Source: a virus
Virus record (IMG/VR): IMGVR_UViG_3300036715_002603
Span: 1 to 20,856 of that record
Reading direction: 5' to 3' (one strand)
Length of the DNA stretch: 20,856 bases
In this document: piece after piece, positions 1,255 to 20,274 of the stretch
How the letters are laid out: each line of letters starts with the position of its first letter
Position numbering within the stretch: position 1 is the first letter of the stretch
Notes under the pieces: model-generated
What the model saw: only the letters and a program-made list of their open reading frames with translations
Databases searched by the model: none
Told to the model about the DNA's origin: nothing
Position numbers and translations under genes: made by a program

Positions 1255-1260
1255 TTTTTG

Positions 1261-1289
1261 CCCCACGCTCACACCGTGGGGATTTTTTT
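1261..1289 (+). terminator. Intrinsic terminator-like hairpin between the gp10-like and tape measure genes
   Basis: CCCCACG (1261-1267) pairs perfectly with CGTGGGG (1275-1281) around a 7-base loop, followed by A and seven Ts (1283-1289). It begins six bases after the preceding stop codon and ends just before the tape measure ribosome site (AAGGA, 1291-1295). On the + strand it has both hallmarks of a rho-independent terminator. It would lower transcription into the tape measure gene unless antiterminated. Confidence 0.75.
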
Positions 1290-1302
1290 AAAGGAACAAC
1301 AA

Positions 1303-4300: not shown

Positions 4301-6708
4301 GCTGGATTCAAAACCGAGACTGGACCACTATCAAACAAAAGATTACTAAGAGTTTGTTGGCAAAATTGTTTGGTGGTAAAGCAGGTACTCGTGGTGCTGT
4401 CATTGGTGCAGCTATTGCAGTCAAACCTGTCGTCGATTGGGTAACAGAATCTCACCAAGACTGGAGCGCCGCTCAACAAGTTGGTGCTATCATAGGTGCT
4501 GAACTCGCAGTGGCTGTAGGTAGTGGTCTTGCCGCTAGTATGACCACTGGATTGACAAAGTACATGGCTGCTAAGACTATTACTGTCTTTGGCCCTGCGT
4601 TTACGGCAATGGCCGAGTCTATCAGGGGTAACAAAGTAGCCTATGCAGCTATTCTTTCTGTTGCTGTGATGGAAGTTATGTCTATTGCTCTGAACGGGCA
4701 AGGTATGGTTGAAAAGCTTGTTCCTGACACGCAAAAAATGGCGGGTATGTTTGTTGATGCGCTAACCAGTGCGCTTGTTGTGGGTCTAGGTGCCATTGCA
4801 ATTGGTGCTAGTATCCCTCTTGCTCTTGGTCTTGGTTTGCTTGCTGCAATTGGTCTGGGTATTGCAAGGTTCCTGGGTCCTGAGAAGATGGCGGAAATTG
4901 GGCATCGAGTCCTAGACGCAATCGAAGCAGGTATCGAAGCTGTTGTTGGTGCTGGTAAGTGGATCATTCTGCTCTACACTGACCCTCAGATGGCTCGTGA
5001 CCAAGGTGCTGAGTTTATCAAGAACTTTATGGAAGGTGTCAAGTCAATTGGCAGTGAACTGAGTGACTGGCTGAAACAGCAGATGGGATTCCCAACAGGA
5101 AACCTTGATAAGGACCTGAATAGTGTTGCAGTAGCTAAAGATAGCATTGCAACTGCCGACACTCCCCTGAAGCTTGCTCTAGCGGTTGATGCCTTGTCCA
5201 AGGCTAATGAGAATCTTGGTAAAACAATTGCAGGTAAACCTGGGGCGCTAGCCCTAGATGGTCTAGATTTCCCTGCTAGAGTCCAAGCAATGTTGAGCAG
5301 AGAACAAGACAAACTTACTGCAAACCAAAATTACTTGTCTGCTTTCCCAGTGAACTCACTGCAAATTAATGCCTTATCTAACGAGGACACTGGACTGAAC
5401 CCCGAAGATCTGGCTACAATGGCCATGGCTACAGTTCAGATTGCTGATTCTAATAAGAAAATTGGAGAGTTTCAGGCTGTTCTCGACAATCTCAAGGTCA
5501 ACGCAACCAACATCTACATCATGGGTGGTGGTCTTGGCGGCGGCGTGTTGTTGAATGTTCCCACTCCTCGAGTAGACCCCGAAGCTAACGGCTCTACACG
5601 TAGGGCAGCTGGCGGTTGGGTTTTTGGTGCAGGCTCTGCAACCAGCGATTCTATTCCCGCAATGCTGTCTAATGGCGAGTTTGTGATCAACGCTAAGCAA
5701 TCTAAGAAGTTTGCTGGTGTGTTGCAAATGATCAACAGCGGTCGCATGGGCCACCATAAAGATGGTCTCGCACCCGAGCAACCTGGGTTCTTTCAATCAA
5801 CTATGGACTACCTAACTGGTGGGCAAGGAACAAGGATTGAACCAGCAACAGACGCAGAAAATAAGCTCTCTGACGCTCGAACCAAGGGCATCAGGGTTGC
5901 AACAGCTGCGGAACGTCATGCCAAATGGCTTGCTGATCGTACTAAGGAAAACGCTAAGAAACTAGAAGAGTCTGTCTGGGAGCTTGAGCAAGCTCTCAAA
6001 GAAGCCTCTGACATGAACAAAGATTACTTTGCTCAAGTTGGGGTTGACGGTGCTAAGTCTATGTCTGACTCAATGAAGTCTCACTTGAAGGCAGCACTGT
6101 CGGGAACAGAAACTCCTCTTCAAGCTATTTCTGGTTTTATTGATGATTTTACTAGCCAGATCATTTCTGGTTTTGTAGACTCCTTCACTAACTCTATCTT
6201 CAAAGGTCTGAATCTCGATTCAATCTTTGCAAATATGTTTTCTGGAAATGCACAAATGGGTGCTGGAGTAGGTACTGCTGTCGCCGGAAAAGTCGCTGGC
6301 GCTGGCGGTGGTGGATTCTTGGCTGGTGCTCTCAGCTGGCTTGGTGGGTTGTTCCACTTGGCAGACGGCGGCCATATTTCTGGTCCAGGAACCGGGACTA
6401 GTGACTCTATTCCCGCAATGTTGTCTAACGGAGAGTTTGTTGTAAATGCAGCAGCTACTAAACGTTGGTCTCCACTACTGCACTCTATTAACTCTGGCTC
6501 TGTTCCCCACTTTGCCGGGGGTGGTCGGGTTGGTTCTCCTCCCACTGCTCTCATGGGTGGTGGTAAGGCTTCTGGGAAGGCTGAGCAACACTTCCATATA
6601 ACTGTCACTGGCGATGTTTCTGCTCAAACTCGCAAAGAAATCGTTAAGATGATCCCGGATATTACCGCTGGAGTTAACATGACCAATCGCGAAAAAGGCA
6701 ACAGATAA
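1303..6708 (+). CDS. Tape measure protein, 1801 residues
   Basis: This protein fills the tail tube, sets its length and is ejected into the host during DNA entry. I chose ATG 1303 because AAGGA sits 7 bases upstream; the longer frame from TTG 1258 would run through the terminator hairpin. Residues about 90-310 resemble the tape-measure N-terminal domain (GNWHGSGQELQSIAEQAP, AAEGKLTTDAVTNAL). Residues about 440-1190 hold roughly 15 glycine/alanine-rich hydrophobic segments, far more than usual. Two copies of a 44-residue motif (SDSIPAMLSNGEFV) lie near the C-terminus. I see no NlpC or lysozyme domain. At lambda's scale (853 residues, about 135 nm) the tail would be roughly 270-285 nm. The stop overlaps the next start (TAATG). 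Confidence 0.95.
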   Translation: MSVSIDFTARDREVTAAFKRIDDGLNRLTRSSSTLNRNMLALNRASDYSKLSKSMDTAAKSTATFNNKILDTIGGLKAAAIAAAAFAGAFAYVNKVVNSGDAMTMIDNRISIVVGRTAKLAVVRKQLSEIAANTKSTLSDSADLFGSLGLTLKDKYTTDKLLSLVETVQNASKIGAQSPESTSAALVQFGQAMSGNWHGSGQELQSIAEQAPMILVAIAKGMKMSTTEVRKLAAEGKLTTDAVTNALLSQREDLAKQAANQTPTVAAGWMLAKDALMQYHGELNRALGINQYIGKALLGIANYFRAHAKTIGKTVDDFINPWARSIHKIVVYASELWPQVEAIFINFKNGVIAIFTELWDVLVGHSIWPDTVDQIAEYTKTLWPKVKAYLVEFRNNVVNMFSNLQSWLGSIDYFKLALITITGMATVFRGMRAYANFGTKGGLLSALLFGAGVVSFATQLSSIDVIKQSITNLVDKIKSYSKDGKSIDLGAFFSATLPLKAIGTALSIAKAKLIESFKDTSSFLSVQFGSLKKKVLEFYKAVVTSDFGSIANPLTSIYDYAVNTFDIKQAVFILSTLLMAVFNASVRGVVKQSFKLGFGLLLLTAFNVEEVNSIVGWYLQAGFYSIYNMLVGSAKSLSSNALGDVIAQLYIPSTGATERLIPKISRAIGNALTTAGVALGSVLFSSVFSSLPEAQIKAMTANWAGTIGTALGFGAMYAFNGTFRSGIKYMIGFLTGTADNVLAGALLSPKLRTAFYKRLFTSFGSLFVGWNLGEVLADSLKLGKGSLLYTATELATAFGTAFITDAAYAMMTGEGLSKKVKDARKKPGVTVNGRKMSKAQPAEVGPGFLSSAFGLVTSAAIGFAISQSVIDPIIEQLTGGPLSQSMKIASAVITMLGTSMAMGMSLPLPQGMKSKTKNLSAVFVKTMENMIADAFPTKVKGVQRVAIGGLGAAIGMWIGGQMVEGVGLSSNQELAVKGVSTVAGTMIGLLASQFSEAGVGWIQNRDWTTIKQKITKSLLAKLFGGKAGTRGAVIGAAIAVKPVVDWVTESHQDWSAAQQVGAIIGAELAVAVGSGLAASMTTGLTKYMAAKTITVFGPAFTAMAESIRGNKVAYAAILSVAVMEVMSIALNGQGMVEKLVPDTQKMAGMFVDALTSALVVGLGAIAIGASIPLALGLGLLAAIGLGIARFLGPEKMAEIGHRVLDAIEAGIEAVVGAGKWIILLYTDPQMARDQGAEFIKNFMEGVKSIGSELSDWLKQQMGFPTGNLDKDLNSVAVAKDSIATADTPLKLALAVDALSKANENLGKTIAGKPGALALDGLDFPARVQAMLSREQDKLTANQNYLSAFPVNSLQINALSNEDTGLNPEDLATMAMATVQIADSNKKIGEFQAVLDNLKVNATNIYIMGGGLGGGVLLNVPTPRVDPEANGSTRRAAGGWVFGAGSATSDSIPAMLSNGEFVINAKQSKKFAGVLQMINSGRMGHHKDGLAPEQPGFFQSTMDYLTGGQGTRIEPATDAENKLSDARTKGIRVATAAERHAKWLADRTKENAKKLEESVWELEQALKEASDMNKDYFAQVGVDGAKSMSDSMKSHLKAALSGTETPLQAISGFIDDFTSQIISGFVDSFTNSIFKGLNLDSIFANMFSGNAQMGAGVGTAVAGKVAGAGGGGFLAGALSWLGGLFHLADGGHISGPGTGTSDSIPAMLSNGEFVVNAAATKRWSPLLHSINSGSVPHFAGGGRVGSPPTALMGGGKASGKAEQHFHITVTGDVSAQTRKEIVKMIPDITAGVNMTNREKGNR
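5611..5742 (+). repeat. Tape measure internal repeat, copy 1 (44 residues)
   Basis: This codes for a segment beginning GGWVFGAGSATSDSIPAML and ending INSG. It is the same length as the second copy at 6367-6498, and both share SDSIPAMLSNGEFV almost exactly. This Gly-rich SDSIPAMLSxGEFVxNA motif recurs in many tape measure and phage tail proteins. The two copies look like an ancient internal duplication or paired structural sites. Confidence 0.8.
6367..6498 (+). repeat. Tape measure internal repeat, copy 2 (44 residues)
   Basis: This codes for a segment beginning GGHISGPGTGTSDSIPAML and ending INSG, the counterpart of 5611-5742. At DNA level the core (gactctattcccgcaatg) is nearly identical to copy 1 while the flanks have diverged. 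The copies are separated by 208 residues. Confidence 0.8.
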
Positions 6709-7322: not shown

Positions 7323-7897
7323 GAAGTGTAGGATCAAATTTTAAAGCTCGCCTGAGTGATGCTAGTGTTCGTACCGTTCTGTACGCAGAGATTGGTGTTT
7401 CTCCGACTCCGGTAAGGATGACAAGCCACACAACTAACCTTGTGATGGATGGAAATACCTTTCTTGCAAGTAGCAACGCCATAGGTTTTGGTTCTCCTAG
7501 GATTTCCACCTCAATTGACAGAGAGATCTACGAGTTTATCGTAGCGGATCCGTCTAATGAGATGCAAATTCTATGGAGAAATGGAATGTACGGGGCAACT
7601 CTAACAATTTGGATTGGGTTGTATGGTACTACTTTTTATCCAAGTGACCTAGGCCCAGGTAATATTTCCATAGCCTATAGAGGCATTATTGACAGTATTA
7701 TTGTTTCTAATGACCAATCTACAAAACTAGTAAAAATACAAGCTGCTTCTCCAATGGCTAGTCTTGATAATATTTCTGGGGTTCTTGTGTCAAAATCAGG
7801 AATTAATAGACTTAAACCAATTGGTGTAACAGACACTAGCTTTGACGAGGTCATTGTTGACGCTAAGGAAGTGCTTCTAAGGTGGGGTAAAAGATGA
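7319..7897 (+). CDS. Minor tail protein, gpL or BR0599-like
   Basis: This encodes 192 residues, start ATG 7319 with ATGA overlap to the preceding gene. The N-terminus (LSDASVRTVLYAEIGVSPTP, then RMTSHTTNLVMDGNTFLAS) and the central YEFIVADPSNEM resemble phage tail proteins of the DUF2163/BR0599 kind that lie before the central hub gene. The C-terminus ends in a basic tail. It occupies the place of lambda gpL, with no gpK-like peptidase or gpI following. The stop overlaps the hub gene start (ATGA), implying coupled translation of the tip complex. Assignment relies on pattern and order and would need a profile search. Confidence 0.6.
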   Translation: MRSVGSNFKARLSDASVRTVLYAEIGVSPTPVRMTSHTTNLVMDGNTFLASSNAIGFGSPRISTSIDREIYEFIVADPSNEMQILWRNGMYGATLTIWIGLYGTTFYPSDLGPGNISIAYRGIIDSIIVSNDQSTKLVKIQAASPMASLDNISGVLVSKSGINRLKPIGVTDTSFDEVIVDAKEVLLRWGKR

Positions 7898-10800
7898 TCT
7901 TTTCAACTATTGCAGTAGGGCTATCTGCCTTTGCCTCAGCTGCGGCGGGAGCCACTATCACAATTACAGGTCTCCAGGTAGCAACTTTTCTTGGGTCTGT
8001 TGCCTGGCAGCAATACCGGCAGAAAAAACTTGCCACTGAAATGGATAAGAGAAAACAGGTAGAAGTTGCCGTTCAAGGTGAACCTTTCTATTTGCCTCTA
8101 GTTTATGGACGTGGCAAGGTTGCTGGGGGGGTTACCTCAGTAAAACTCAGCAAGTACTTTAACTACGCACCAGGAACTAGTGACCCCCGGATCAATCGCT
8201 ACACTAATGGCAATGCACTCAATGCAAGCCATATCAGTTTTAATCACCCTTATTTGTTTTCTCAGCAAGCTATTTGCTACGGTGGAATCAATAGAATTGT
8301 TGATATCGAAGTCGATGGGAAAAACTGGGATCATGAAACACTAAAGTTTGGTCAGCAAATCAATGTTTACCTTGATGGTAACATTGCTGACCCAATGGCT
8401 ACCGCTAACTCTTTTCCTTCAACTAACATCTTTTCCAACACTTGCTACAGCTCTAGTGCCTACGAATTAAACCGGGACTCTTACCAGTACAATGGTAATC
8501 CTTCTTTGTCTTTTTATGTTGAAGGTATGATGATCTATGAGGTAATGAAGTCAGGCGCTACCTACTACTTGTCAGACACAAAAACTTATTCTAACAATCC
8601 AGCAAGAGTTTTGCTGGACTACCTAACTAATCCTGTTTATGGCCGAGGGCTAGACCTCAGTGAAATTGATCTTAAAAGCTTCTACAATGCTCAAAAGATT
8701 TGTAATACTGTGGTAATTCCCGCCGTTGCTACCGATGGTAAGATTTTTGGTCGTAGACCCGACGAAGAAGATGAAGATGGCAACACCATAGCTCAGCCAC
8801 CTAGTCCTGATCGTCCTTTGCCTTTGTACGAGTGTAATATGGTTGTTGACACCGAGCGGTCGATCAGAGACAATATTGAACTAATTCTAGAAACAATGAG
8901 TGAAGCCGAGTTGATTTGGTCATCAGGCACCTATAAACTCTCGCTGATGTACCCTACCAACGAAGCAAAACAATCTGCCCTGGTTGTTCTGGAAATCAAC
9001 AACGACAACCTTGTTAGAGATACTATTACCTTGACCTGGCCTGACTCTAGCACTCGCTACGCTCAAGTCACTGCTTCCTTTAAGAACGAGAATGAAAATT
9101 TTAAGGATGATGTAAAAACTTGGCCAGAAACCTATTCGACTGTCTACAACACTTATGTAACAGAAGACAGCGGACAGGTTCTTAAAACAGAAGTTTACTT
9201 GCCGGGAACTACAGACCCTTACCATGCTAAGGCCAAGGCCGAGCAAATGGTCAGAACTTCAAGAAACTCTTACTCCATAGCCTTTAAGGCAAGAGGGGAA
9301 GCAACTCTTCTTGAACCAGGCGATCTTGTTCTTATCAATGATCGAAATACCTATGTGAACGGTGAGATCTTCAAAATCAAGTCTGTAAAACTCAATGAGG
9401 ACTTTACAGCAAACCTTGAGGCTGACTACCATAGCTACACTAACTATGCCTTCAATGCCCCTGACGATGTCGCCTATGTCAAGAAAATAACTTACTACGA
9501 CGGGGTTAAAAATCCCAGGAATGTGACTGTTTCTCTTGGTGCTGAAACTAAAGATCCTAATAGAACTATGAAAATTAGTTGGGATAGCCCAATTACTCAG
9601 ACTCCGAGCAGTTATATTGTTGATTACTATATTGACAATTCTTACTTTGACTCTGGTCTTGGATTGTGGGTTGTTGATCCGGATACTACTTACTTGCCAC
9701 TGGGAACAACTACCGCTCAGAGCTATAGCATCACTGGTCTTGAAACTGGGACTTATGTCTTCAGAGTCCGTTCTATTTCTCAACTTGGTAGACTGTCCTC
9801 AGGTGTAGTGACTCGTTACACTTACCTTGACAACACTCCTCCGGAGCCGTCAATTCCTACTGTTACAGAAGAGCTTTACTACCTCAATGAAGCAGCAGGA
9901 GTTAAATCAAGACTTGTTGTTTCTTGGAATGCAAATCCTTCTTCAGGAGTTGTTATTACTTCCAGATACGCAGTAAGCTATCGTTTGTCAACAGCAGTTG
10001 ACTGGATCTTTGTTGGTGAAACTTCTGGCACAAGTATTCGTATTGATGATGTGTTGGCTGGCTCATATGTTGTTAGACTTAACGCCATAGGTCGTAATGG
10101 ATACATTTCAGACTATGTCTACCGTGAGTTTGTTGCTCTTGGGTTGACAGCCCTGCCAGCAGACCCAACTAACCTGACTTTGTCCAACGGGGCCAGCGGG
10201 CAGACTATTTTGTCCTGGGATCCAACTCCTGACATTGATGTTGCCTACGGTGGGCTTGTGCTTATAAGACTGCACCCAGCAATTGACGGGTCGGCCACTT
10301 GGGAAGCTGCGACAGAAGTAACATCTAAGGTTCCGGGTAGCATGATTACCTACTCAGTGCCAACAATGATTGGGACTTACTTTATCAAGTTTATAGACTC
10401 TACCGGCCAGCAGTCAGCTAACTTTGCTAGTGTTGTGAACAAGTATGGTGGTTTTAACTACACTGTTGTTACAAACACAGTTATACCAAACACCTATACT
10501 GGTCTCAAGACAAGATGTTCTGTTATCTCTGGTGTTCTTACCCAAGATACTGGAACGACTAATATGTCGTACTACTATGCAAGTAACCCTATTGATATCA
10601 ATGAAGTAGTGGATGTCCGTATAACTCCACAGTATGTTGCTAGTTGTACTACTCGTGGCACACTGGTTTCCGACTATTCAGACATCAGCTCCATGACTTC
10701 CTTTAGTGGGCCTGTGGGCTCTGGTTATGTTAGGTTCTATGTTTCTTATTCAGAGGACAACATCACCTTCACTCCTTACTCGCTCATTACTTCGGCTACT

Positions 10801-11145
10801 CTAACAGGTAGGTATTTCAAAATCAGAGTTAATGCTAATACCGCAGACTCAAACTCTTTCTTCCAGTTTACCTCTCTAAGTTTGATAATTGATATCAAGA
10901 ACAAGAACTACAGAGGAAACACAACCACAAGCAGCTCAGCAGATACTGTAGTGACTTTCCCGACTCCTTTTTATGGAGGCATTTCTGGGACAGTTGTGCC
11001 TACAGTTGCAGTAACCCCTGTTGGTGGTTCTTCTGGCGACAACGTTGTTGTTGTTGCTCGTAGTAAGACGAGTTTTACTGTCTCTGTATACAACGCAGGG
11101 GCACGAGTCGTTCGCGACATCGATTGGCATGCATCAGGAATTTAA
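7894..11145 (+). CDS. Central tail hub / tip attachment protein (lambda gpJ-like)
   Basis: This encodes 1083 residues, start ATG 7894 overlapping the previous stop. Residues 1-40 are hydrophobic, then FYLPLVYGRGKVAGGVTSVK matches the opening of gpJ-type hubs (YGxGrvaG). The middle contains the hub fold (YLTNPVYGRGLDLSEIDL; DNIELILETMSEAELIWSSG). Three fibronectin type III-like domains lie at about 540-648, 650-750 and 750-845. The C-terminus (VTFPTPFYGG to DWHASGI) resembles the beta-rich end of many phage hubs and fibres. It should form the tail tip, bind receptor or fibre, and open during infection. It is close to lambda gpJ in length. Confidence 0.88.
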   Translation: MIFSTIAVGLSAFASAAAGATITITGLQVATFLGSVAWQQYRQKKLATEMDKRKQVEVAVQGEPFYLPLVYGRGKVAGGVTSVKLSKYFNYAPGTSDPRINRYTNGNALNASHISFNHPYLFSQQAICYGGINRIVDIEVDGKNWDHETLKFGQQINVYLDGNIADPMATANSFPSTNIFSNTCYSSSAYELNRDSYQYNGNPSLSFYVEGMMIYEVMKSGATYYLSDTKTYSNNPARVLLDYLTNPVYGRGLDLSEIDLKSFYNAQKICNTVVIPAVATDGKIFGRRPDEEDEDGNTIAQPPSPDRPLPLYECNMVVDTERSIRDNIELILETMSEAELIWSSGTYKLSLMYPTNEAKQSALVVLEINNDNLVRDTITLTWPDSSTRYAQVTASFKNENENFKDDVKTWPETYSTVYNTYVTEDSGQVLKTEVYLPGTTDPYHAKAKAEQMVRTSRNSYSIAFKARGEATLLEPGDLVLINDRNTYVNGEIFKIKSVKLNEDFTANLEADYHSYTNYAFNAPDDVAYVKKITYYDGVKNPRNVTVSLGAETKDPNRTMKISWDSPITQTPSSYIVDYYIDNSYFDSGLGLWVVDPDTTYLPLGTTTAQSYSITGLETGTYVFRVRSISQLGRLSSGVVTRYTYLDNTPPEPSIPTVTEELYYLNEAAGVKSRLVVSWNANPSSGVVITSRYAVSYRLSTAVDWIFVGETSGTSIRIDDVLAGSYVVRLNAIGRNGYISDYVYREFVALGLTALPADPTNLTLSNGASGQTILSWDPTPDIDVAYGGLVLIRLHPAIDGSATWEAATEVTSKVPGSMITYSVPTMIGTYFIKFIDSTGQQSANFASVVNKYGGFNYTVVTNTVIPNTYTGLKTRCSVISGVLTQDTGTTNMSYYYASNPIDINEVVDVRITPQYVASCTTRGTLVSDYSDISSMTSFSGPVGSGYVRFYVSYSEDNITFTPYSLITSATLTGRYFKIRVNANTADSNSFFQFTSLSLIIDIKNKNYRGNTTTSSSADTVVTFPTPFYGGISGTVVPTVAVTPVGGSSGDNVVVVARSKTSFTVSVYNAGARVVRDIDWHASGI

Positions 11146-13348: not shown

Positions 13349-13404
13349 AAAAAAAAAAGAAAGTGGACCCCTCCGGCGTAATGCCAGAAGGGTCCTTTTT
13401 TTTT
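13349..13404. terminator. Bidirectional intrinsic terminator between converging operons
   Basis: A 13-position stem (GGACCCCTCCGGC 13365-13377 with 13383-13395, two C-A mismatches) has a GTAAT loop. It is followed by nine Ts (13396-13404) on the + strand. On the - strand the upstream A-run (13349-13358) gives a T-run. It sits directly after the lipoprotein stop and overlaps the stop of the 13403-14278 gene, so it should end both transcripts. Confidence 0.9.
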
Positions 13405-14278
13405 AGAACTCCTCGCCGGGGTTCAGTACAATATTGTTGGCTGCAGGCACATCAGCCATATGGACCGGGCCTTCTTCTTGTGCGCCAATCCCTGCATTCC
13501 AGAAATCATCTGCAGGAGCAGGGTCAGTGGCAGCTTTCCACTTTATTGGTCCTCCTGGAAACTTCTTGGGGCTAGCAGATGCAAGCTTCACCTCTTCCAG
13601 GTGAAAGTCAAAGTTTATAGCTTCTCGCAGAAAAGCTCGGCGAGCCCCATACTCGTTGTAGTCCAATAACTTTGAGCACCAAAAATAGAATCCATTCTTG
13701 GTGGCTTTCCAGTCAAAGGCTTCATACAACTCGTACAAAGGTTTGTTGACGATGTAGTCAATCCTTTCTTGTTGTGTCAAACCTGTGACCCCCAGGGTTT
13801 TCAATCCCTCGAGATCTACAATTGCCATTGGCAGGTAGGTTGGCAGCAGATTGATTACCACTTGCATCGCATCTACCATCTGAGATAGTATTTCAGGGTA
13901 ATCTGTTTCCGAGGGCAAGTAGTCAGTTAGTGCTCCGCTATCTACAAAGCTAGGAGCGCCTTTCCGCACTACCTGCACATAGAACTTGAAGTGTTGGGCC
14001 TTGAGAGCACGCAGCACCATACTTCGGGGGGACTCACTGAGCCCTACTTGAACTGACAATTGTGCTGCGTAGTTCAGAAACATTTTCAGATCAGTACAAA
14101 CTTCCGCAAATTGTTCCGGTTCAATTCTGCGGCCAAAGTGAGCATCGTAATACTCAGCGCTCTCCTTTGCAGCCTTGATACAATCCACTTCACGACCAGC
14201 CTTGATCTTGCTTGAAAATGGTGAACCGAGGTATCGCAGAGGTGTCAGGGCCGCCATAATTTCGTAGCTTTTACTCAT
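13403..14278 (-). CDS. Unknown protein at the end of the amidoligase cluster (291 residues)
   Basis: This encodes 291 residues. ATG at 14278 overlaps the stop of the ATP-grasp gene (ATGA), and the stop TAA lies inside the terminator T-run. The protein looks mainly helical (EYYDAHFGRRIEPEQFAEVC, FFLREAINFDFHLEEVKL-like stretches), with a Pro/Ala/Gly-rich low-complexity C-terminal tail (DPAPADDFWNAGIGA). I see no catalytic motif, signal peptide or membrane segment and recognise no family. It is the last gene of the leftward transcript, so it probably works with the ligase genes, for example as carrier, substrate or target-binding partner; that is inference from coupling alone. Confidence 0.8.
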   Translation of the reverse strand: MSKSYEIMAALTPLRYLGSPFSSKIKAGREVDCIKAAKESAEYYDAHFGRRIEPEQFAEVCTDLKMFLNYAAQLSVQVGLSESPRSMVLRALKAQHFKFYVQVVRKGAPSFVDSGALTDYLPSETDYPEILSQMVDAMQVVINLLPTYLPMAIVDLEGLKTLGVTGLTQQERIDYIVNKPLYELYEAFDWKATKNGFYFWCSKLLDYNEYGARRAFLREAINFDFHLEEVKLASASPKKFPGGPIKWKAATDPAPADDFWNAGIGAQEEGPVHMADVPAANNIVLNPGEEF

Positions 14279-15048
14279 ACAGCAATTGCTCCAATCATGG
14301 TAATATAGTCATTCACCGTGGTCCCCGACAAGCCAGGGGCGGTGTTTGCTTCAAGAACAAAAGGTTGTTTTTTCCTCTCATTGTAGATAATGTCAAAGGC
14401 TCCAAAGTCAAGACCAGAAGCCTTGGCTGCCTTGGACGCTTCTTCAAGAACATTCGGGGGAACATCAATGTCATTTCGAGCAAAGATGAAACCATTGTCA
14501 TGGTTCCGAATCTTGAAGTTCACCTTGTCCTCAGGGATGTCCATGTCCCTCTTTTTTTGTTGAATCGAGAACACGGTGCCATCACCCTTGGTGTGGATGC
14601 GGTATTCATGCCGCTTGGGAATATACTCCACCAACAGCGTTCCAGGAGCAATTGCATCGAGCTCTTCCTTGCTGTTCACAACAACAATACCAACACCGCT
14701 GTGCCCATTCAACACAGTGCGAGCAAACACCATCTTTGCTCCTGTATCAAAATAGGAACGAGCAACTTCCTTGTCAGTCGTGAAGCGAGGAATAGAAACC
14801 CCTGCAGCTGCCATGTCTTCAAAGAAGGTCTTCTTGTTGGTAGCTCGGGAAGTCTTGTTGGGGTGGTTGATGACCTTCACCCCTGTTCCTTCCCAGTGAG
14901 CAGGCAGCGAGCTGGAGCCCCAGTTCAGAACAAGCTTCTTGGCACTCGGTTTGAACTTGGAGCCTTCAAGACGAATCAAGAGACTCTCTGTGCCCTTGGC
15001 TAGCGCGAGAGCAGACTTGGAACCGGCTTTGTAGGGAAGAATGTACAT
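14275..15048 (-). CDS. ATP-grasp amide ligase (RimK/D-Ala-D-Ala-ligase-like)
   Basis: This encodes 257 residues from ATG 15048, chosen because GGAG lies 9 bases upstream and the ATG overlaps the amidoligase stop (TAATG). ATP-grasp motifs are in order: NKKTFF (71-76), the glycine-rich loop FARTVLNGHSGVGIVVV (108-124), LLVEYIPKRHEYRIH (138-152), QQKKR (163-167), DFGAFDIIYN (214-223, Asp219) and FVLEANTAPGL (230-240, Glu233 and Asn235 as Mg/ATP ligands). The enzyme should activate a carboxylate as acyl-phosphate and join it to an amine, making a peptide-type bond. It is short (257 residues), close to a bare catalytic core. The substrate is unknown. Neighbouring ligases and glutaminases suggest a shared pathway. 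Confidence 0.9.
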   Translation of the reverse strand: MYILPYKAGSKSALALAKGTESLLIRLEGSKFKPSAKKLVLNWGSSSLPAHWEGTGVKVINHPNKTSRATNKKTFFEDMAAAGVSIPRFTTDKEVARSYFDTGAKMVFARTVLNGHSGVGIVVVNSKEELDAIAPGTLLVEYIPKRHEYRIHTKGDGTVFSIQQKKRDMDIPEDKVNFKIRNHDNGFIFARNDIDVPPNVLEEASKAAKASGLDFGAFDIIYNERKKQPFVLEANTAPGLSGTTVNDYITMIGAIAV

Positions 15049-15878
15049 TATTTGGTGCTCCATTTTTTCAGATAGATCCAGAACTGGTGAAGGTAGATAC
15101 AACCACGAATTTTGTCTTCAAAATTGGGTTGTTTGGTGATCTTCGGAGCATACGCCCCAAACACCGTATTGGCAACGGTTTCAAAGCCAATGGCTGAGAA
15201 GCTGTCAATGACCTCCTGTGGGTTGTTGAATCGCTTCGCCCCCTGGACCAGGCACTCAATGATGTCAATCCAAGTCAGTATGGGGGCTGCTGTGACGGGA
15301 GTGCGCAAGGCTCGGAATTCAATCGAACCAAACTTCTTCACCGAGTACAAGTTAAGCGCGGAGTAGCGCATGTCTTGGTTGTTGAACAGCATTGCTTCGA
15401 AGGTTTCACTCTGCAAACACTGATACAAACCATGAGGAATGTACCCGGCTTCCTTTGCGTCAAGGCAAAAGAGATTGCCCTTTCGTTCTTCTCCCAGGAA
15501 AACAAAGAGCGTGTCTTCAAACAAGTAGTACAACGACAAGAAAGTAAACAGCTCCTGAACTGTCCACGATTGAACGTTGTAGTGTATGTGTACACCAGCT
15601 CTCATCGAATCGTTGACTGTTCCGATTTTGTCGTAGAGTCTGACAACTTCCTTCTTTGCCTTCAATGCATCAGGAAAAACGCCTGACACGTACTCCATGG
15701 AATGACCCCGCAAAGAGCCATCGGGTTTGGAATTCCACCACGCGTTGTCAGGATCAACCCCCGCCACCATTTCAGGGAAAGGTGCAGGACCTTCAACTTC
15801 AACCTCAACACCATAGAGTTCTTTTCGGATGGTGTGACGATAGTGCGTGCCAAGCACCTTAGAAAGAAATACGCTCAT
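15048..15878 (-). CDS. Amidoligase_2 family ligase (glutamine-synthetase-like)
   Basis: This encodes 276 residues from ATG 15878, with GGAGGA just upstream on the - strand. It overlaps the end of the preceding 201-residue protein by 20 bases. Family motifs appear in order: GVEVEVEG (23-30) with metal-binding acidic residues; KPDGSLRG then MEYVSG (51-66); RAGVHIHYN (93-101); and RYSALNLYSVKKFGSIEFRA (171-190) with the conserved ATP/metal residues. These fit the GS-like COOH-NH2 ligase superfamily, which forms amide bonds through an acyl-phosphate. Enzymes of this kind make gamma-glutamyl or isopeptide links in bacterial surface polymers and peptide metabolites. The particular substrate is unknown. 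The full motif set suggests an active enzyme. Confidence 0.88.
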   Translation of the reverse strand: MSVFLSKVLGTHYRHTIRKELYGVEVEVEGPAPFPEMVAGVDPDNAWWNSKPDGSLRGHSMEYVSGVFPDALKAKKEVVRLYDKIGTVNDSMRAGVHIHYNVQSWTVQELFTFLSLYYLFEDTLFVFLGEERKGNLFCLDAKEAGYIPHGLYQCLQSETFEAMLFNNQDMRYSALNLYSVKKFGSIEFRALRTPVTAAPILTWIDIIECLVQGAKRFNNPQEVIDSFSAIGFETVANTVFGAYAPKITKQPNFEDKIRGCIYLHQFWIYLKKWSTK

Positions 15879-16464
15879 AGCCTACAGTTCCTCCGAGCTC
15901 TTGCGACAAGAAGTCAAAATTTGACTCAAGTTTAAACTTATCGTTACCAGTCAGTCGACCGATAGGAATCTCCTTGTACTTCAGCTTGTAGTCACCACTC
16001 AGGCAGAAGGAACGAGACAGCGGTTGCTGTTCCCCTGTTTCCTCCAATTCTTCCATGACGTCATCAATCTTGCGGTAAGTGTTTTCCAGACAGATAGAGA
16101 CATCCTTGGCGTTGTCAGTGAAGATTCTTTCGCTGAACCCACTCAGGTTTCCTTTTTCTCCAAGGATGAACATGGTCCCACTGGTGAGGCCTTGTTTAAA
16201 GTTTCGACGCAGAGGACTACGCACGACATAGTACGGCCCAATGTAGCCGAGCTCTCCCGGCACATACTCAAGAGTGTCCCAGGTCGTTTGTCTCCAGCCA
16301 GAGAACAGTCCTTTGTTGGCAACAGAAATCTTCGCAGTTTCCAGCTTGTTGTTTATGCCAGTCATTTCTCCTACCTGGACAATACCAACCCCTTTCATCT
16401 TCAACCAAGACATGTGGAGTCGGGAATGAGCCCAAGACATTTCGTTGTTAAAGGGAATTTTCAT
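15859..16464 (-). CDS. Unknown protein inside the amidoligase cluster (201 residues)
   Basis: This encodes 201 residues from ATG 16464, chosen because AGAAGG sits 6 bases upstream; the longer frame to 16560 runs back into the preceding ligase gene and lacks a ribosome site. It overlaps that ligase by 17 bases and the next ligase by 20, so all three are tightly packed. The sequence is mixed alpha/beta, with GVGIVQVGEMTGINNKLE, LGYIGPYYVVRSPLRRNFK and a Glu-rich helix (ICLENTYRKIDDVMEELEE). I recognise no family or active-site motif. Its position between two ligases suggests a substrate adaptor, a third enzyme or a modified target, but no function can be stated. Confidence 0.8.
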   Translation of the reverse strand: MKIPFNNEMSWAHSRLHMSWLKMKGVGIVQVGEMTGINNKLETAKISVANKGLFSGWRQTTWDTLEYVPGELGYIGPYYVVRSPLRRNFKQGLTSGTMFILGEKGNLSGFSERIFTDNAKDVSICLENTYRKIDDVMEELEETGEQQPLSRSFCLSGDYKLKYKEIPIGRLTGNDKFKLESNFDFLSQELGGTVGYERISF

Positions 16465-17296
16465 GACGAACCTTCTCATAGATAGCTGCGCCAATTTCAG
16501 CCATGTTGTTGTTGATAACAGCCTGCGCTTGGTAGCCTGCACGATTGTTGATTGCCGCAACCTTGGGCATCAACGTTGCTTTTTCGCTGTTCATTGCCAG
16601 CTGTGCAAAGGCCGCCACCGCTCTGCGGTAGACAAAGCGTGTTGTGGACTCCTTCAACAGCCATTGATTGCTGAGAGAACGGTACTCCATTCCGTAGGGC
16701 TTCGGTCGGAAAGCTCCTGCAGCCCCGTAGAGCGCACGACGCAAGGCGTTGTCATCCCAACCAAGCGATGGAACTCCTAGAAAGTTGTCCAGCTGGATTG
16801 CAAGAGCAGCACAAGCATTGATATGCGCACCATTGGGTCTGAAATTCTTTCCCCAACCAAAGTGGACATGACCCCCCGCAGACCGCATGCAAGGATCTGT
16901 AAGGTTCGGTTTCGGGTTTGTCATCCTTGTGTAGGCGTTGTAATCGGGATCACAACCTAACTCGAGAGCCTCGGGAGGTTGTGCTCGGATAATTGTCTCA
17001 TCGAAGACCACAACCGGAACAACATCCAGCGTGTAACCCTTCGGCAGCATAGACGCCAACTGCGTCATGACTGAGGAAATTCGAGTGACAAACTCATCCT
17101 CAGTGGCACAAGGATCTACCCCAAACTCAAGTGCCATACCATCGACCTGAACCATCCCGTCTTTCACCTTGAGAGGGTTGTCCTTGGTTCCAGGAATCAG
17201 GCCATGGGCACTGACATGCTTGCCCGAACTGTCTTTTACAAAGACCTCGGGGTCACAACCCAACATCAATTCAAGGCTACCTTTGTTCAGCTTCAT
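16448..17296 (-). CDS. phiEco32-like COOH-NH2 ligase, type 2 (glutamine-synthetase-like)
   Basis: This encodes 282 residues from ATG 17296 (GGAG 5 bases upstream, TGATG overlap with the preceding glutaminase stop; GTG at 17299 adds one residue). Motifs from the ATG at residue 1: LGCDPEVFV (about 12-20), DGMALEFGVDP (52-62), SAGGHVHFGWG (139-149) and RRALYGAAGAFRPKPYGMEY (186-205) followed by RSLSNQW. These match the family named for phage phiEco32, a relative of Amidoligase_2 and gamma-glutamylcysteine ligase that forms amide bonds through ATP and Mg. It differs clearly from the other ligase at 15048-15878, so the cluster has two separate GS-like ligases. The substrate is unknown. The HVHFGWG histidines and Arg/Glu residues appear intact. 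Confidence 0.88.
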   Translation of the reverse strand: MKLNKGSLELMLGCDPEVFVKDSSGKHVSAHGLIPGTKDNPLKVKDGMVQVDGMALEFGVDPCATEDEFVTRISSVMTQLASMLPKGYTLDVVPVVVFDETIIRAQPPEALELGCDPDYNAYTRMTNPKPNLTDPCMRSAGGHVHFGWGKNFRPNGAHINACAALAIQLDNFLGVPSLGWDDNALRRALYGAAGAFRPKPYGMEYRSLSNQWLLKESTTRFVYRRAVAAFAQLAMNSEKATLMPKVAAINNRAGYQAQAVINNNMAEIGAAIYEKVRHENSL

Positions 17297-18402
17297 CACG
17301 ACTCCAACATTTCAAACTCAAGGGCGCAGCTATGGCAAACAGGAAGCAGCTTGTTTGCCCATTTGATTCTCCCGTTTGTGCAGTCTTCAAAGTTCAGATC
17401 GGCCCCACAGCAGGCGCACCCACCATGAGACAAATCAGCAAAAAGAGCAGCAGTAACAGGACTACTATGAATGTACCATCCGTCTTCGATTCCGAGTCTC
17501 TTGGAGCCTTGACGACGAAAAGGCACTACTGCATGTGGTACCTCCCGGCCATGTCCCACCAGTCTTGATACTCCTGGGACTGTAAGTGCGCCTCGTTGTT
17601 GAAAGTTGTCAGCTGCGGGGGTTGCCGCAACTACCTCCTTCTCAACAACCTCAACAGTCATGGACTCAATTCTGCCAGTAGTCTTTGACAGCTTGAAGGT
17701 CAAGTGTTTGTTTTCGTCGAGAGATGTTACCATCTCAGGTTTGATCCAGGTGCATTTGCCCTGGCGAGCTGCCAGCTTCAACATCCACTCTTCTGACGCC
17801 CAGGCCAGCTTGCCATAGGGTTGGTCAAAGACAAAGAACAACGGACGTTCTTTGTTCCTGTAAAGGTTGATCGTGTTGGTCTTATCGTCATACCAGGTGA
17901 GAGCAAGAGCACCTGTGACTGTGTTCACAACCTTTTGAAGCGGCCAGTCCTTCGACAAGGCATGGAACATTTTTTCCGAGTCAGTGGTTCCCTGCAAGTC
18001 TCCCTGAACATGGGGCAGCTGGAACAACCCTTGGTTGATCGTGCCATTGTGAGCGCCCACGATGTTGCCCTGACGGAAAGGGTGAGCATTCATGACACCG
18101 GGCCCGCCGACAGAGGCAGCCCGGTTGTGGCCAATGATAAACTCGATTCTTTCACCAAGAGGGGCTTCAATACGACCCAGGGTGTTGAAGAAACCAGGGT
18201 TCCTGGCAAACAAGTTACCAGGAGCTCCTTCGGTCTTCCGCAGGTCAACACGACCCCGATTGTTTGAAAGCTTGACCCGCTTGATAGCAACACCTGTGGA
18301 GTCTTCGCCGCGAGTCGAGTCAAAGTTCAGCATCCAACGGAAGGTTTCCAAGTCAATGTTATTGCTCAGATCCGTTCCTGCCATACCTACAAGTCCACAC
18401 AT
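17296..18402 (-). CDS. Class II glutamine amidotransferase with C-terminal zinc-ribbon-like tail
   Basis: This encodes 368 residues, start ATG 18402 directly after the previous stop. The Met-Cys start (MCGLVGMAG) gives Cys2 as the N-terminal nucleophile. RGEDSTGVA (31-39), GHNRAAS (91-97), AHNGTINQ (117-124, oxyanion Asn-Gly at 119-120) and TTDSE (about 139-143, substrate Asp) complete the glutaminase site. No synthetase, phosphoribosyl or isomerase domain follows, unlike AsnB, PurF or GlmS. After a Pro/Val-rich linker the C-terminus has CACC and CHSC pairs 23 residues apart, a zinc-ribbon-like tail. It probably releases ammonia from glutamine for one of the ligases or acts as an Ntn-type amidohydrolase. 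The partner is not known. Confidence 0.88.
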   Translation of the reverse strand: MCGLVGMAGTDLSNNIDLETFRWMLNFDSTRGEDSTGVAIKRVKLSNNRGRVDLRKTEGAPGNLFARNPGFFNTLGRIEAPLGERIEFIIGHNRAASVGGPGVMNAHPFRQGNIVGAHNGTINQGLFQLPHVQGDLQGTTDSEKMFHALSKDWPLQKVVNTVTGALALTWYDDKTNTINLYRNKERPLFFVFDQPYGKLAWASEEWMLKLAARQGKCTWIKPEMVTSLDENKHLTFKLSKTTGRIESMTVEVVEKEVVAATPAADNFQQRGALTVPGVSRLVGHGREVPHAVVPFRRQGSKRLGIEDGWYIHSSPVTAALFADLSHGGCACCGADLNFEDCTNGRIKWANKLLPVCHSCALEFEMLES

Positions 18403-19014
18403 TCACTTCTCTCCGTAGTAATTCAGAATGAGGTCACGGGCAAGGGTCGAGGTTTCCCCTGTCAGCTTGGAGTCATACTCTGGGTGAAACTGCATCCCTA
18501 GGAAGTTGTATCGTTGGCTGTGGATAACCTCCACATGGGTACGATCATCGACAACGCCCATGACAAGGTCATACTGAGCAGTCTCATCAAGAGGCACTTG
18601 CTGATGGTGGTAAGTGTTGGTGTACCAGTCTTCATCCTTCAGCGGGTTTGCTCCTGAGACCAGAACAACTCGGTGATCTCGGGCCTTGTGGTCGTTTATG
18701 TGCTGCGTCAGACGACCTCCTGTAGAAATATGAAGCATCTGCATTCCCCTGCAAATACCGATCATTGGAACACCTTGCAGCCGGTAGCGGAGAATTGACT
18801 CAAACTCATTGTAGTCACGGTTCAAAGGGGCAGGGGAGGTAAAACGGTGGGCTTTCTCTCCATACAGAATGGGGTTCACATCAGCCCCTCCCGGAAGGAT
18901 TAGAAAGTCAGGGAGCGGGCCACCTGCATCTTGCTTGGCAGGTTTCCAACCCAGAGCATCTTCAACCCAGCTGGCAACGTTGAAGTCAGGGTGCGACATT
19001 GTAAAGGTTTTCAT
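18403..19014 (-). CDS. Class I glutamine amidotransferase-like hydrolase (peptidase C26, PuuD-like)
   Basis: This encodes about 203 residues from ATG 19014; a GTG at 19023 that overlaps the upstream stop would add three residues and is an equal possibility. The triad is visible: GICRGMQ (nucleophile Cys88 from the ATG), and GMQFHPEY (His177, Glu179). LILPGGADVNPILYGE gives the oxyanion strand. The ILPGGADVNP pattern and the YHHQ motif are those of the C26 gamma-glutamyl hydrolases such as PuuD rather than of PurQ or GuaA. It should cleave a gamma-glutamyl amide bond or supply ammonia. It abuts the class II glutaminase with no gap, so the two are probably co-translated. Confidence 0.86.
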   Translation of the reverse strand: MKTFTMSHPDFNVASWVEDALGWKPAKQDAGGPLPDFLILPGGADVNPILYGEKAHRFTSPAPLNRDYNEFESILRYRLQGVPMIGICRGMQMLHISTGGRLTQHINDHKARDHRVVLVSGANPLKDEDWYTNTYHHQQVPLDETAQYDLVMGVVDDRTHVEVIHSQRYNFLGMQFHPEYDSKLTGETSTLARDLILNYYGEK

Positions 19015-19019
19015 CTTGT

Positions 19020-20051
19020 TCACATTCCAGTTGTTATGTTGTTTTTCGCCACGAAGTTTTCAAACCACGGAAGATCTACCGAGATCTTAGAGATGCTGGC
19101 TTTGTTGGAGCTAGGCAGCTGGCTAACTGCTTGCTCCCAGAAGTATTGGTATGCCGGTTCGATCTCTTCTGTTCTACCTCCTACACGGGTTTGATTTTTG
19201 CCGTGGTAATCCCTGACTGGAATAATCTCTCCGTTGATCTCACCAAGCAAAAGTTTTGTTGCGTAGCCATCCCAGTTTTTGACACAGATGCTACTATCCA
19301 TCCCAAAGAGTTTTCTACCCTTCAAAAAGGAGATACCCTGAAAACCTTGTTGCAGTTCACTTCTACACAGATTCTTAAGTCCCCCAAGGTAGTTCATCTG
19401 CACAGACCAAGGCAAATGATGGGAAGTCCCTGTGCCAAACAAAGAATGGCTAGTATGGCTTTGGGCTCCTGCAACCCAATAGAGCTTATCGTTAGACAAG
19501 CACAGTTGGCCACTCGTAACCAAGGCAAGCTGCAACAACCAAGGAAGCTTATAACCATCTTTCACGAGACGGTCAAAAGGTTCTACGTAGACCTCATACT
19601 CAGTCCAAGGCCAGCGGGCCAGCTGTGCTGCAAGCAAGAAGAGGTTTGCTTCAAGATCAATTCGTTGAATCACCCCGTGTTTAGCAGCTACTTCTGCCTT
19701 TTTTGTGATGTAGCAATCCCTCAACAAGGATCTGTTCAACAACCAGTCGTAGTAAGCTACGATACTGGTATAGTTTGACAGGTCTTTAGTGCTGTGGGTG
19801 ACTACCCCTAGAATCTTTGTCTTCCTTACCATAGACTGAGCAGCGGGTAGCAAGAAATAATGACAAGGACCATCACCTTGATACATTTCTCCTTTCTCTG
19901 GCAGCAAACTTGCCTTGACACTGGAAATCTTTTGTTTGATTCCAAACACACCAGCTTCGTGTTGGTTAATGTACTCTTGAATGGTAGCCAAGATAACCTC
20001 TTTGCTAAAATGAGAAAAAAGCCCAGTAATCTGGGCCTTTAGCTTAGACAT
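19020..20051 (-). CDS. Unknown protein upstream of the amidotransferases (343 residues)
   Basis: This is 343 residues if started at ATG 20051, which overlaps the glutaredoxin end by 8 bases but has no clear ribosome site. A terminator hairpin (20015-20036) lies in its first 13 codons. A TTG at 19991 preceded by AAGAGG at 5 bases spacing would avoid it and give 323 residues; I list the ATG version but rate the start uncertain. The protein has several hydrophobic and aromatic patches (FLLAAQLARWPWTEYEVYV, LPWLLQLALV) but no clear signal or membrane helix. I do not recognise a family. It precedes the class I amidotransferase gene by a TGA/GTG overlap, so it may belong to the amide-ligase pathway. 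Confidence 0.75.
   Translation of the reverse strand: MSKLKAQITGLFSHFSKEVILATIQEYINQHEAGVFGIKQKISSVKASLLPEKGEMYQGDGPCHYFLLPAAQSMVRKTKILGVVTHSTKDLSNYTSIVAYYDWLLNRSLLRDCYITKKAEVAAKHGVIQRIDLEANLFLLAAQLARWPWTEYEVYVEPFDRLVKDGYKLPWLLQLALVTSGQLCLSNDKLYWVAGAQSHTSHSLFGTGTSHHLPWSVQMNYLGGLKNLCRSELQQGFQGISFLKGRKLFGMDSSICVKNWDGYATKLLLGEINGEIIPVRDYHGKNQTRVGGRTEEIEPAYQYFWEQAVSQLPSSNKASISKISVDLPWFENFVAKNNITTGM
20015..20036 (-). terminator. Intrinsic terminator hairpin between glutaredoxin and the amidoligase genes
   Basis: On the - strand GCCCAG, loop ATTA, CTGGGC is followed by six Ts, with AAAG before the stem that can extend it through one G-T and three A-T pairs. It begins eight bases after the glutaredoxin stop. 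That is typical placement for a terminator ending the ribonucleotide reductase transcript, but it falls inside the first codons of the next open frame if that starts at ATG 20051. Confidence 0.7.
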
Positions 20052-20274
20052 AGGCTAGTAGTTCAGTGTAGCCTCCTAGGTACTCTGAGTCAAGAAAGAT
20101 TGCAGGGACAGTTCTGATACCAAGCTCTGCAAACAGGTTCTGGTATTCAGGTGAAGTTGCGAGTTCAACAAACTCATAGGCTAGCCCTTTCCTCTCAAGG
20201 AGCTTTTTAGCCAACTCACAATATGCACAAACAGGAGTTGTTCTTCCAACAACCCTAATATAAATTGATTCCAT
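20044..20274 (-). CDS. Glutaredoxin
   Basis: This encodes 76 residues, start ATG 20274 overlapping the ribonucleotide reductase stop (TAATG). The active site CAYC (residues 16-19), the cis-proline motif TVPAIF (55-60) and the GGYTEL helix start (67-72) identify a small monothiol/dithiol glutaredoxin of NrdH or GrxC type. It would reduce the C-terminal cysteine pair of the adjacent ribonucleotide reductase, using glutathione or a thioredoxin reductase of the host. CAYC is a variant of the usual CPYC. The length is about normal for a phage glutaredoxin. The tight overlap with the reductase gene strongly supports that partner. Confidence 0.92.
   Translation of the reverse strand: MESIYIRVVGRTTPVCAYCELAKKLLERKGLAYEFVELATSPEYQNLFAELGIRTVPAIFLDSEYLGGYTELLAYV
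20065..20093 (-). promoter_or_regulatory. Possible sigma-70-like promoter within the glutaredoxin gene
   Basis: On the - strand TTGACT (20088-20093), a 17-base spacer and TACACT (20065-20070) form a moderate promoter pattern, with a predicted start near 20058. It lies ahead of the terminator hairpin and the 343-residue gene. The match is weaker than the one at 12895-12924 and may be a chance result of coding sequence. Confidence 0.25.

Follow-up and report, generated by a model that had tools for sequence, protein, structure and literature searches.

A set of phage genes named the 'Peptidoglycan Modification Cassette' is conserved in RIO-1, phiEco32, 7-11, PA11, tf, MR299-2, LUZ24, PaP3 and CW02, and its products are hypothesized to change the cell surface as a barrier to superinfection (PMC5498523). 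The module has been described likewise in phiM6 (PMC6256558) and in a Pseudomonas aeruginosa phage published in 2025 (PMC11945000), and lists of its genes are given in the UFV-P2 and TC6 papers (PMC3890496, PMC6209634). Guesses at its product date back to 2009 (Iyer 2009 and Hardies 2013, as cited in PMC5498523); we found no experiment on this product in the open-access literature, which omits most subscription papers. In PaP3 microarrays, open reading frames (ORFs) 32-48 form the middle class (10-30 min; PMC4707531), and the PaP3 amidoligase, ORF46, lies within this block. Here we analyze the entire IMG/VR record IMGVR_UViG_3300036715_002603 (20,856 bases; hereafter the window), which represents only part (20.9 kb) of a phage genome. 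Read on the minus strand from its right end, genes for ribonucleotide reductase alpha subunit and glutaredoxin are followed by a protein called X, a Peptidase_C26 protein (C26), a class II glutamine amidotransferase (GATase, of the GATase_6 type), a PF14395 (phiEco32-type COOH-NH2) ligase, a protein called Y, an Amidoligase_2, an ATP-grasp protein, a protein called Z and a strong terminator. This set almost certainly belongs to the known phage peptide-ligase ('peptidoglycan modification') cassette, with a siphophage as its carrier. A first-pass annotation had considered it the best candidate for an undescribed pathway, a view that has to be given up, since a putative peptidoglycan-modification or peptide-bond module is repeatedly in print (PMC5498523, PMC6256558, PMC11945000). 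What is added to the known cassette is X and Y as quantified core members, a siphophage context with Z, an interchange of C26 with GGCT, and amidoligase C-terminal tips resembling those of single-stranded DNA-binding protein (SSB). No description of the cassette in this siphophage clade, of Z, of the interchange or of an SSB-like amidoligase C-terminus was found in the open-access literature.

The domains named in the first-pass annotation, with their intact motifs, were all recovered by the profile searches it had proposed. In a Pfam scan of the operon proteins, PF12224, PF14395, GATase_6 and Peptidase_C26 each scored above the Pfam cut-off (E-values in Table 1), and catalytic positions were read from family alignments of 25-31 relatives for each enzyme. 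The PF14395 ligase scores 41.4 bits (cut-off 25) and Amidoligase_2 35.7 bits (cut-off 22), the latter with conserved GxExExE and HxHxN motifs. The GATase scores 60.3 bits (cut-off 27) and is related in structure to GlmS and PurF by PDB comparison; N119-G120 and D141 are invariant, as are C329, C332 and C356 in the tail, C359 being nearly so. C26 is a fold match to its family (87.8 bits) with a putative gamma-glutamyl-removing activity; its nearest PDB relatives are Lin1909 (3fij) and PuuD (6vtv), and C91/H180/E182 are invariant. The ATP-grasp protein lies below the Pfam cut-offs (RimK, 14.7 vs 21 bits) and was assigned by its PHROG and NCBIfam matches and by solved RimK-type ligases in the PDB; its nearest solved structures are RimK and glutamate ligases, and its residues R168/E251/N253 are invariant.

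We gathered 111 virus loci with PF14395 relatives, called ORFs and applied iterated profile searches; the counts below refer to the 82 phage loci having at least 5 kb on either side (fully flanked loci). This comparison of gene neighbourhoods, which the first-pass annotation had called for, revealed co-occurrence. The GATase, Amidoligase_2 and ATP-grasp genes are each present in 82/82 loci, Y in 80 and X in 71, while C26 occurs in 67, GGCT in 39 and one or the other in 80. The PF14395 ligase, Y and Amidoligase_2 genes are contiguous in 78 loci, and the position of Y between the two ligases is that observed in the window. The seven-gene order X-C26-GATase-PF14395 ligase-Y-Amidoligase_2-ATP-grasp is contiguous in 42. 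The tree distances of X, C26, GATase, PF14395 ligase, Y and Amidoligase_2 are mutually correlated (Spearman 0.47-0.63), compared with rho 0.33-0.58 against primase and 0.21-0.38 against polymerase; ATP-grasp is looser. The earlier view of the enzymes as one functional set is thus borne out by a shared order in more than 100 phage loci and by the joint divergence of most cassette genes. The window shares its set and order with KZY1 and T5S1, and TC6 (PA11 group) has X-C26-(two small genes)-GATase-PF14395 ligase-Y-Amidoligase_2-ATP-grasp-(449-aa gene). Related sets had also been noted for phiEco32-like phages; in phiEco32, LUZ24-like phages, 7-11 and T2S2 the set is rearranged, and GGCT replaces C26 wherever one was found. 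The cassette mostly adjoins primase-helicase and DNA polymerase genes.

In the neighbourhoods examined, the cassette comprises about seven genes around the PF14395 ligase, whose relatives are present in at least 317 phage records, among them phages of E. coli, Salmonella and Pseudomonas. The family is nearly absent from cells: about 85,000 cellular genomes yielded 11 loci (L121-L131), all on contigs of metagenome-assembled genomes, which are probably viral contigs binned with cells. Several variants were also observed. phiM6 (L134:7803-8909) and RHph_N3_19 (L135:8274-9410) have a second gene annotated as glutamine amidotransferase downstream of ATP-grasp, L033 has a second PF14395 copy, and L107 (8182-9614 and 10001-12000) includes a second, inverted Y-Amidoligase_2 pair. 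Amidoligase_2 genes also occur close to a GGCT gene, with the other cassette genes absent, in Bacillus phage 022DV001 and in prophages of Clostridium (PMC11318856).

The first-pass annotation had regarded the remaining proteins as unknown partners. For X and Y this does not stand: they are standard, integral members of the cassette, as their co-occurrence across loci and correlated gene-tree distances demonstrate. In X, Cys63 and Arg146 are present in 56/56 aligned sequences and His212 in 55/56, which suggests that X is an enzyme. Its predicted structure (pLDDT 70) has no significant match in the PDB; among viral structures it significantly matches, among others, uncharacterised proteins from CVT22 and CW02, both cassette-bearing phages, and weaker matches fall in RIO-1, LAh_8 and tf. 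Blasticidin-S deaminase was matched in part and without significance; together with one weak SNAD2 Pfam hit (E 0.011), this raised the idea of a deaminase-like core, which was dropped because the zinc-ligand PCxxC / HxE motif is absent; dPPR hits at 1e-5 were rejected as repeats spanning only 18 residues. Long versions of X (L081:5241-7226, L077:4380-6125, L083:4996-6771) carry several N-terminal repeats, SH3-like by eye, with the pattern xVGDxVxx...Y.V and no Pfam match. The AlphaFold model of Y shows a confident fold (pLDDT 93) with no significant match in the PDB and at most weak SH3/Tudor-like fragments. G73, N76 (G in the window), R82, R86 and G92 are near-invariant. Y has no significant relative in Pfam and no tblastn match among phages; an SspH hit in 10 members (best E 3e-5) was small and implausible, and was rejected.

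All the cassette genes lie on the minus strand and abut or overlap one another (Table 1). This agrees with the single overlapping run that had been placed at 13403-19023, an extent which proved too short: the 343-residue gene upstream encodes X, which is part of the set, so the operon part considered here is 13403-20051, running on from the ribonucleotide reductase and glutaredoxin genes. The start of Y was corrected to 16464, where a Shine-Dalgarno sequence (GAGAAGG) lies six bases before the ATG, giving 201 rather than 233 aa, and that of the ATP-grasp protein was moved to about 15063. At the DNA level, matches to known phages were confined to ribonucleotide reductase and ATP-grasp fragments. 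The window's cassette proteins include no transmembrane-like stretch, and eight window proteins gave no match at 0.01 to the PADLOC models of anti-phage defence.

Table 1. Features of the window and, in the last row, Amidoligase_2 genes of other loci encoding an acidic-aromatic tip
Feature	Position	Strand	Evidence or remarks
Ribonucleotide reductase alpha subunit, C-terminal part, cut by contig end	20274..20855	-	TIGR02510 2.4e-74
Glutaredoxin, upstream in same run	20044..20274	-	PF00462 3.1e-12; syntenic in window clade
X, 343 aa, conserved cassette protein	19020..20051	-	homologues in 90/121 loci; invariant Cys63, Arg146, near-invariant His212
Peptidase_C26 / class I glutaminase-like protein, candidate gamma-glutamyl hydrolase	18403..19023	-	PF07722 1.2e-24
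Class II GATase, N-terminal MCG, C-terminal four-Cys zinc-ribbon-like tail	17296..18402	-	PF13522 (GATase_6) 2.6e-16
PF14395 phiEco32-type COOH-NH2 ligase	16448..17299	-	PF14395 1.3e-10; PHROG 3815 5e-78
Y, 201 aa, conserved cassette protein	15859..16464	-	in 80/82 fully flanked loci
Amidoligase_2	15048..15878	-	PF12224 1.1e-8; PHROG 7469 1e-47
RimK-like ATP-grasp ligase, start by homology	14275..15063	-	PHROG 2599 2e-70; NCBIfam RimK family TIGR00768 8.5e-9
Z, 291 aa, last operon gene, C-terminus NPGEEF	13403..14278	-	homologous to clade gene in same position
Intrinsic terminator after Z, closes operon	13365..13395	-	13-pair stem, 9 G-C, T-rich tail
Tipped Amidoligase_2 genes	L004:9420-10367, L029:11604-12545, L036:2653-3552, L079:10233-11441

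The window also carries genes for an 1816-aa tape-measure-like protein (1258-6708) and a 1083-aa J-type tail protein (7894-11145), the closest named relatives of the latter being marine siphophage-type J proteins. These identify the carrier as a siphovirus, unlike the podoviruses of earlier cassette descriptions. Its clade (L010-L020 and L037) has the arrangement primase ... ribonucleotide reductase-glutaredoxin-X-(C26)-GATase-PF14395 ligase-Y-Amidoligase_2-ATP-grasp, mostly followed by a gene Z', and the cassette faces spanin-like genes, an M15-type endolysin and the J-type tail gene. Z is related to Z', which occupies the same position (hhalign E 1.2e-4), and relatives of Z' were found in this phage clade only. 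Unlike the core members X and Y, Z is a putative clade-specific partner.

C26 and GGCT have unrelated folds, each with members that remove gamma-glutamyl groups. Thirteen of the 15 loci without C26 have GGCT (Fisher p=0.001). This interchange may be taken as a hint of gamma-glutamyl chemistry, not as proof.

From the observed genes, motifs, co-occurrence and order we infer each reaction and target of the following scheme, a cytosolic gamma-glutamyl peptide-ligase pathway with a host peptidoglycan precursor as likeliest target, which we favor tentatively. After early infection, the GATase would free ammonia from glutamine or handle gamma-glutamyl amides in the cytosol; the PF14395 ligase and Amidoligase_2 would use ATP to form amide bonds to a glutamyl side chain or to ammonia; the RimK-like protein would lengthen a carboxyl end; and C26, or GGCT in other phages, would remove the gamma-glutamyl group. 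X is probably a further enzyme with a Cys/Arg/His site and Y probably holds the ligases together. With a peptidoglycan precursor peptide as likeliest acceptor, the host wall would be changed and superinfection or defence hindered. The shared order, the presence of C26 or GGCT in nearly all loci, co-divergence (ATP-grasp excepted), PaP3 middle-class timing, the nearest structures and rarity in cells together suggest this scheme, as do proteins whose lack of transmembrane-like stretches implies action in the cytosol, the site of precursor synthesis. The published reading (PMC5498523) agrees, and the putative roles proposed in the first-pass annotation, a gamma-glutamyl product and a cell-surface step, coincide with that guess.

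Several points weigh against the scheme. The biochemical product of the cassette is not established, C26 and the GATase could merely supply ammonia, and the Pfam scan found no Mur-ligase or wall-specific domain in the cassette. The profiles of PF14395 and Amidoligase_2 do not match each other, so that a mechanism common to both is taken from the literature. In a phylogeny-aware test the exclusion between C26 and GGCT was not significant, because the tree offers too few independent pairs (1-3 supported). Finally, the SSB-like tails of many Amidoligase_2 proteins hint at the replisome and not the wall.

It is rather less likely that the cassette leaves the wall unchanged and yields a free product, either a small peptide or an amidated gamma-glutamyl metabolite, that serves as a signal, inhibitor or anti-defence compound, the gamma-glutamyl group being a temporary protecting group. 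Such groups are used by BtrJ/BtrG in butirosin and PuuA/PuuD in putrescine use, and a ligase, an ATP-grasp protein and a gamma-glutamyl remover are the usual make-up of protecting-group pathways, which the cassette fits. The closeness of C26 to PuuD and Lin1909, the C26/GGCT interchange and the absence of membrane-like stretches are also consistent with a metabolite; however, the operon lacks transporter, carrier protein and precursor peptide genes, for which its overlapping genes leave no room.

Less probable again is a protein target: amino acids would be ligated to replication or transcription proteins of the host or the phage, and Amidoligase_2 or Z would dock by means of an SSB-like acidic-aromatic C-terminus. 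RimK, which modifies a ribosomal protein, provides a precedent, and the adjacent primase-helicase and polymerase genes and the weak SH3/Tudor-like part of Y point the same way. Acidic-aromatic tips such as VEEGVPF, DDDFPPIDF, EDDFPPIEF and RDEF, often after a Pro-rich linker, end 31 of 109 distinct Amidoligase_2 tails vs 77 of 1830 other neighbourhood genes (Fisher p ~1e-15, ignoring relatedness), and similar tips occur in 26/30 members of a phage SSB-like cluster. Yet many cassettes are tipless, no target protein is established, and in the window's clade Amidoligase_2 has no tip, the end of Z (NPGEEF) alone being comparable. Slightly less probable still is that the cassette encodes a replisome-docked peptide-ligase complex, not a wall modifier. 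In this reading Amidoligase_2 (or, in this clade, Z) would mimic the SSB tip so as to reach replication proteins, a gamma-glutamyl tag would be built and trimmed there on a protein or nucleic acid, X would represent a novel family of enzymes with a Cys/Arg/His site, and Y would be the scaffold of the complex.

Amide-linked decoration of the bases in phage DNA, a kind of modification for which a phage ligase is proved responsible in S-B43 (CmoX/CmoY; PMC12783734), is very unlikely here. It would suit the adjacent replication genes and the PaP3 middle-class timing, but no base-handle enzyme was seen among the named domains or larger neighbour clusters (a search that was not exhaustive), and the DNA of the cassette-bearing phage tf sequences normally and is cleaved by HaeIII (PMC3517423), which counts against wholesale modification. 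Equally remote is auxiliary nitrogen metabolism aiding host ammonium or nitrate use, as proposed for Poriferisphaera phage ZRK32 in a paper that also makes a growth claim (PMC10945688): the folds do handle glutamine and glutamate, but the same ordered set, X and Y included, persists in phages whose hosts differ widely and is all but absent from cells, and ammonium assimilation does not need two ligases and an ATP-grasp protein. The 'nitrogen metabolism' auxiliary metabolic genes reported for ZRK32 (L007:6576-15196) include PF14395 ligase-Y-Amidoligase_2-GATase-ATP-grasp-GGCT, the same cassette in phiEco32 order, which renders the assimilation reading doubtful.

The comparison defines a cassette core that includes two unrecognised protein families, X and Y. 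A wall target, if true, would mean a superinfection or defence mechanism; if not, a new modification pathway is implied. As the cassette is present in cultured phages, the question of its product is testable.

Among described pathways, three were considered and set aside. For a graspetide pathway (ATP-grasp-dependent ribosomally synthesized and post-translationally modified peptides, RiPPs), there is no small ORF for a precursor peptide between the overlapping genes, and RiPP ligases are only weak among the ATP-grasp PDB hits. For a LysW-type amino carrier, the zinc-ribbon tail of the window forms one polypeptide with the GATase and lacks conserved residues at its end; proteins of 73-78 aa in phiEco32, LUZ24 and 7-11 show no zinc ribbon by eye. 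MurT/GatD peptidoglycan amidation was set aside on the missing Mur-ligase domain. CmoA/CmoX/CmoY hypermodification resembles the cassette in ATP-dependent amide ligation by phage enzymes, and differs in having an asparagine-synthetase-like ligase and requiring a carboxymethyltransferase (PMC12783734); neither DNA cytosine carboxymethyltransferase nor Cx-SAM synthase is among the operon Pfam matches, the contig covering only 20.9 kb of the phage and no search being aimed at either enzyme. UFV-P2 ORF20-29 (LUZ24-like) is closer, with a COOH-NH2 ligase, a conserved hypothetical protein at the position of Y, Amidoligase_2, GATase_6 and ATP-grasp (PMC3890496); it has GGCT (AIG2) in place of C26, and its GATase follows Amidoligase_2. 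The module of Sinorhizobium phage phiM6 shares C26, class II GATase, Amidoligase_2 and ATP-grasp in the same order (PMC6256558), whereas it has a second GATase and GGCT, and in the place of the PF14395 ligase a gene whose sole annotation is aminotransferase-superfamily protein. The closest likeness is with the cassettes of RIO-1/PSA-HP1, PA11/TC6, LUZ24/PaP3, phiEco32, 7-11 and CW02, which likewise combine both ligases (PF14395 and Amidoligase_2) with Y, a class II GATase, an ATP-grasp protein and a gamma-glutamyl remover; TC6 and KZY1 also keep the order of the window. From the RIO-1/PA11/LUZ24 type, whose carriers are podoviruses with the cassette next to primase, the window differs in belonging to a siphophage clade with the cassette next to ribonucleotide reductase and glutaredoxin, in having C26 with no GGCT seen in the contig, in an Amidoligase_2 without C-terminal extension, and in its extra last gene, Z.

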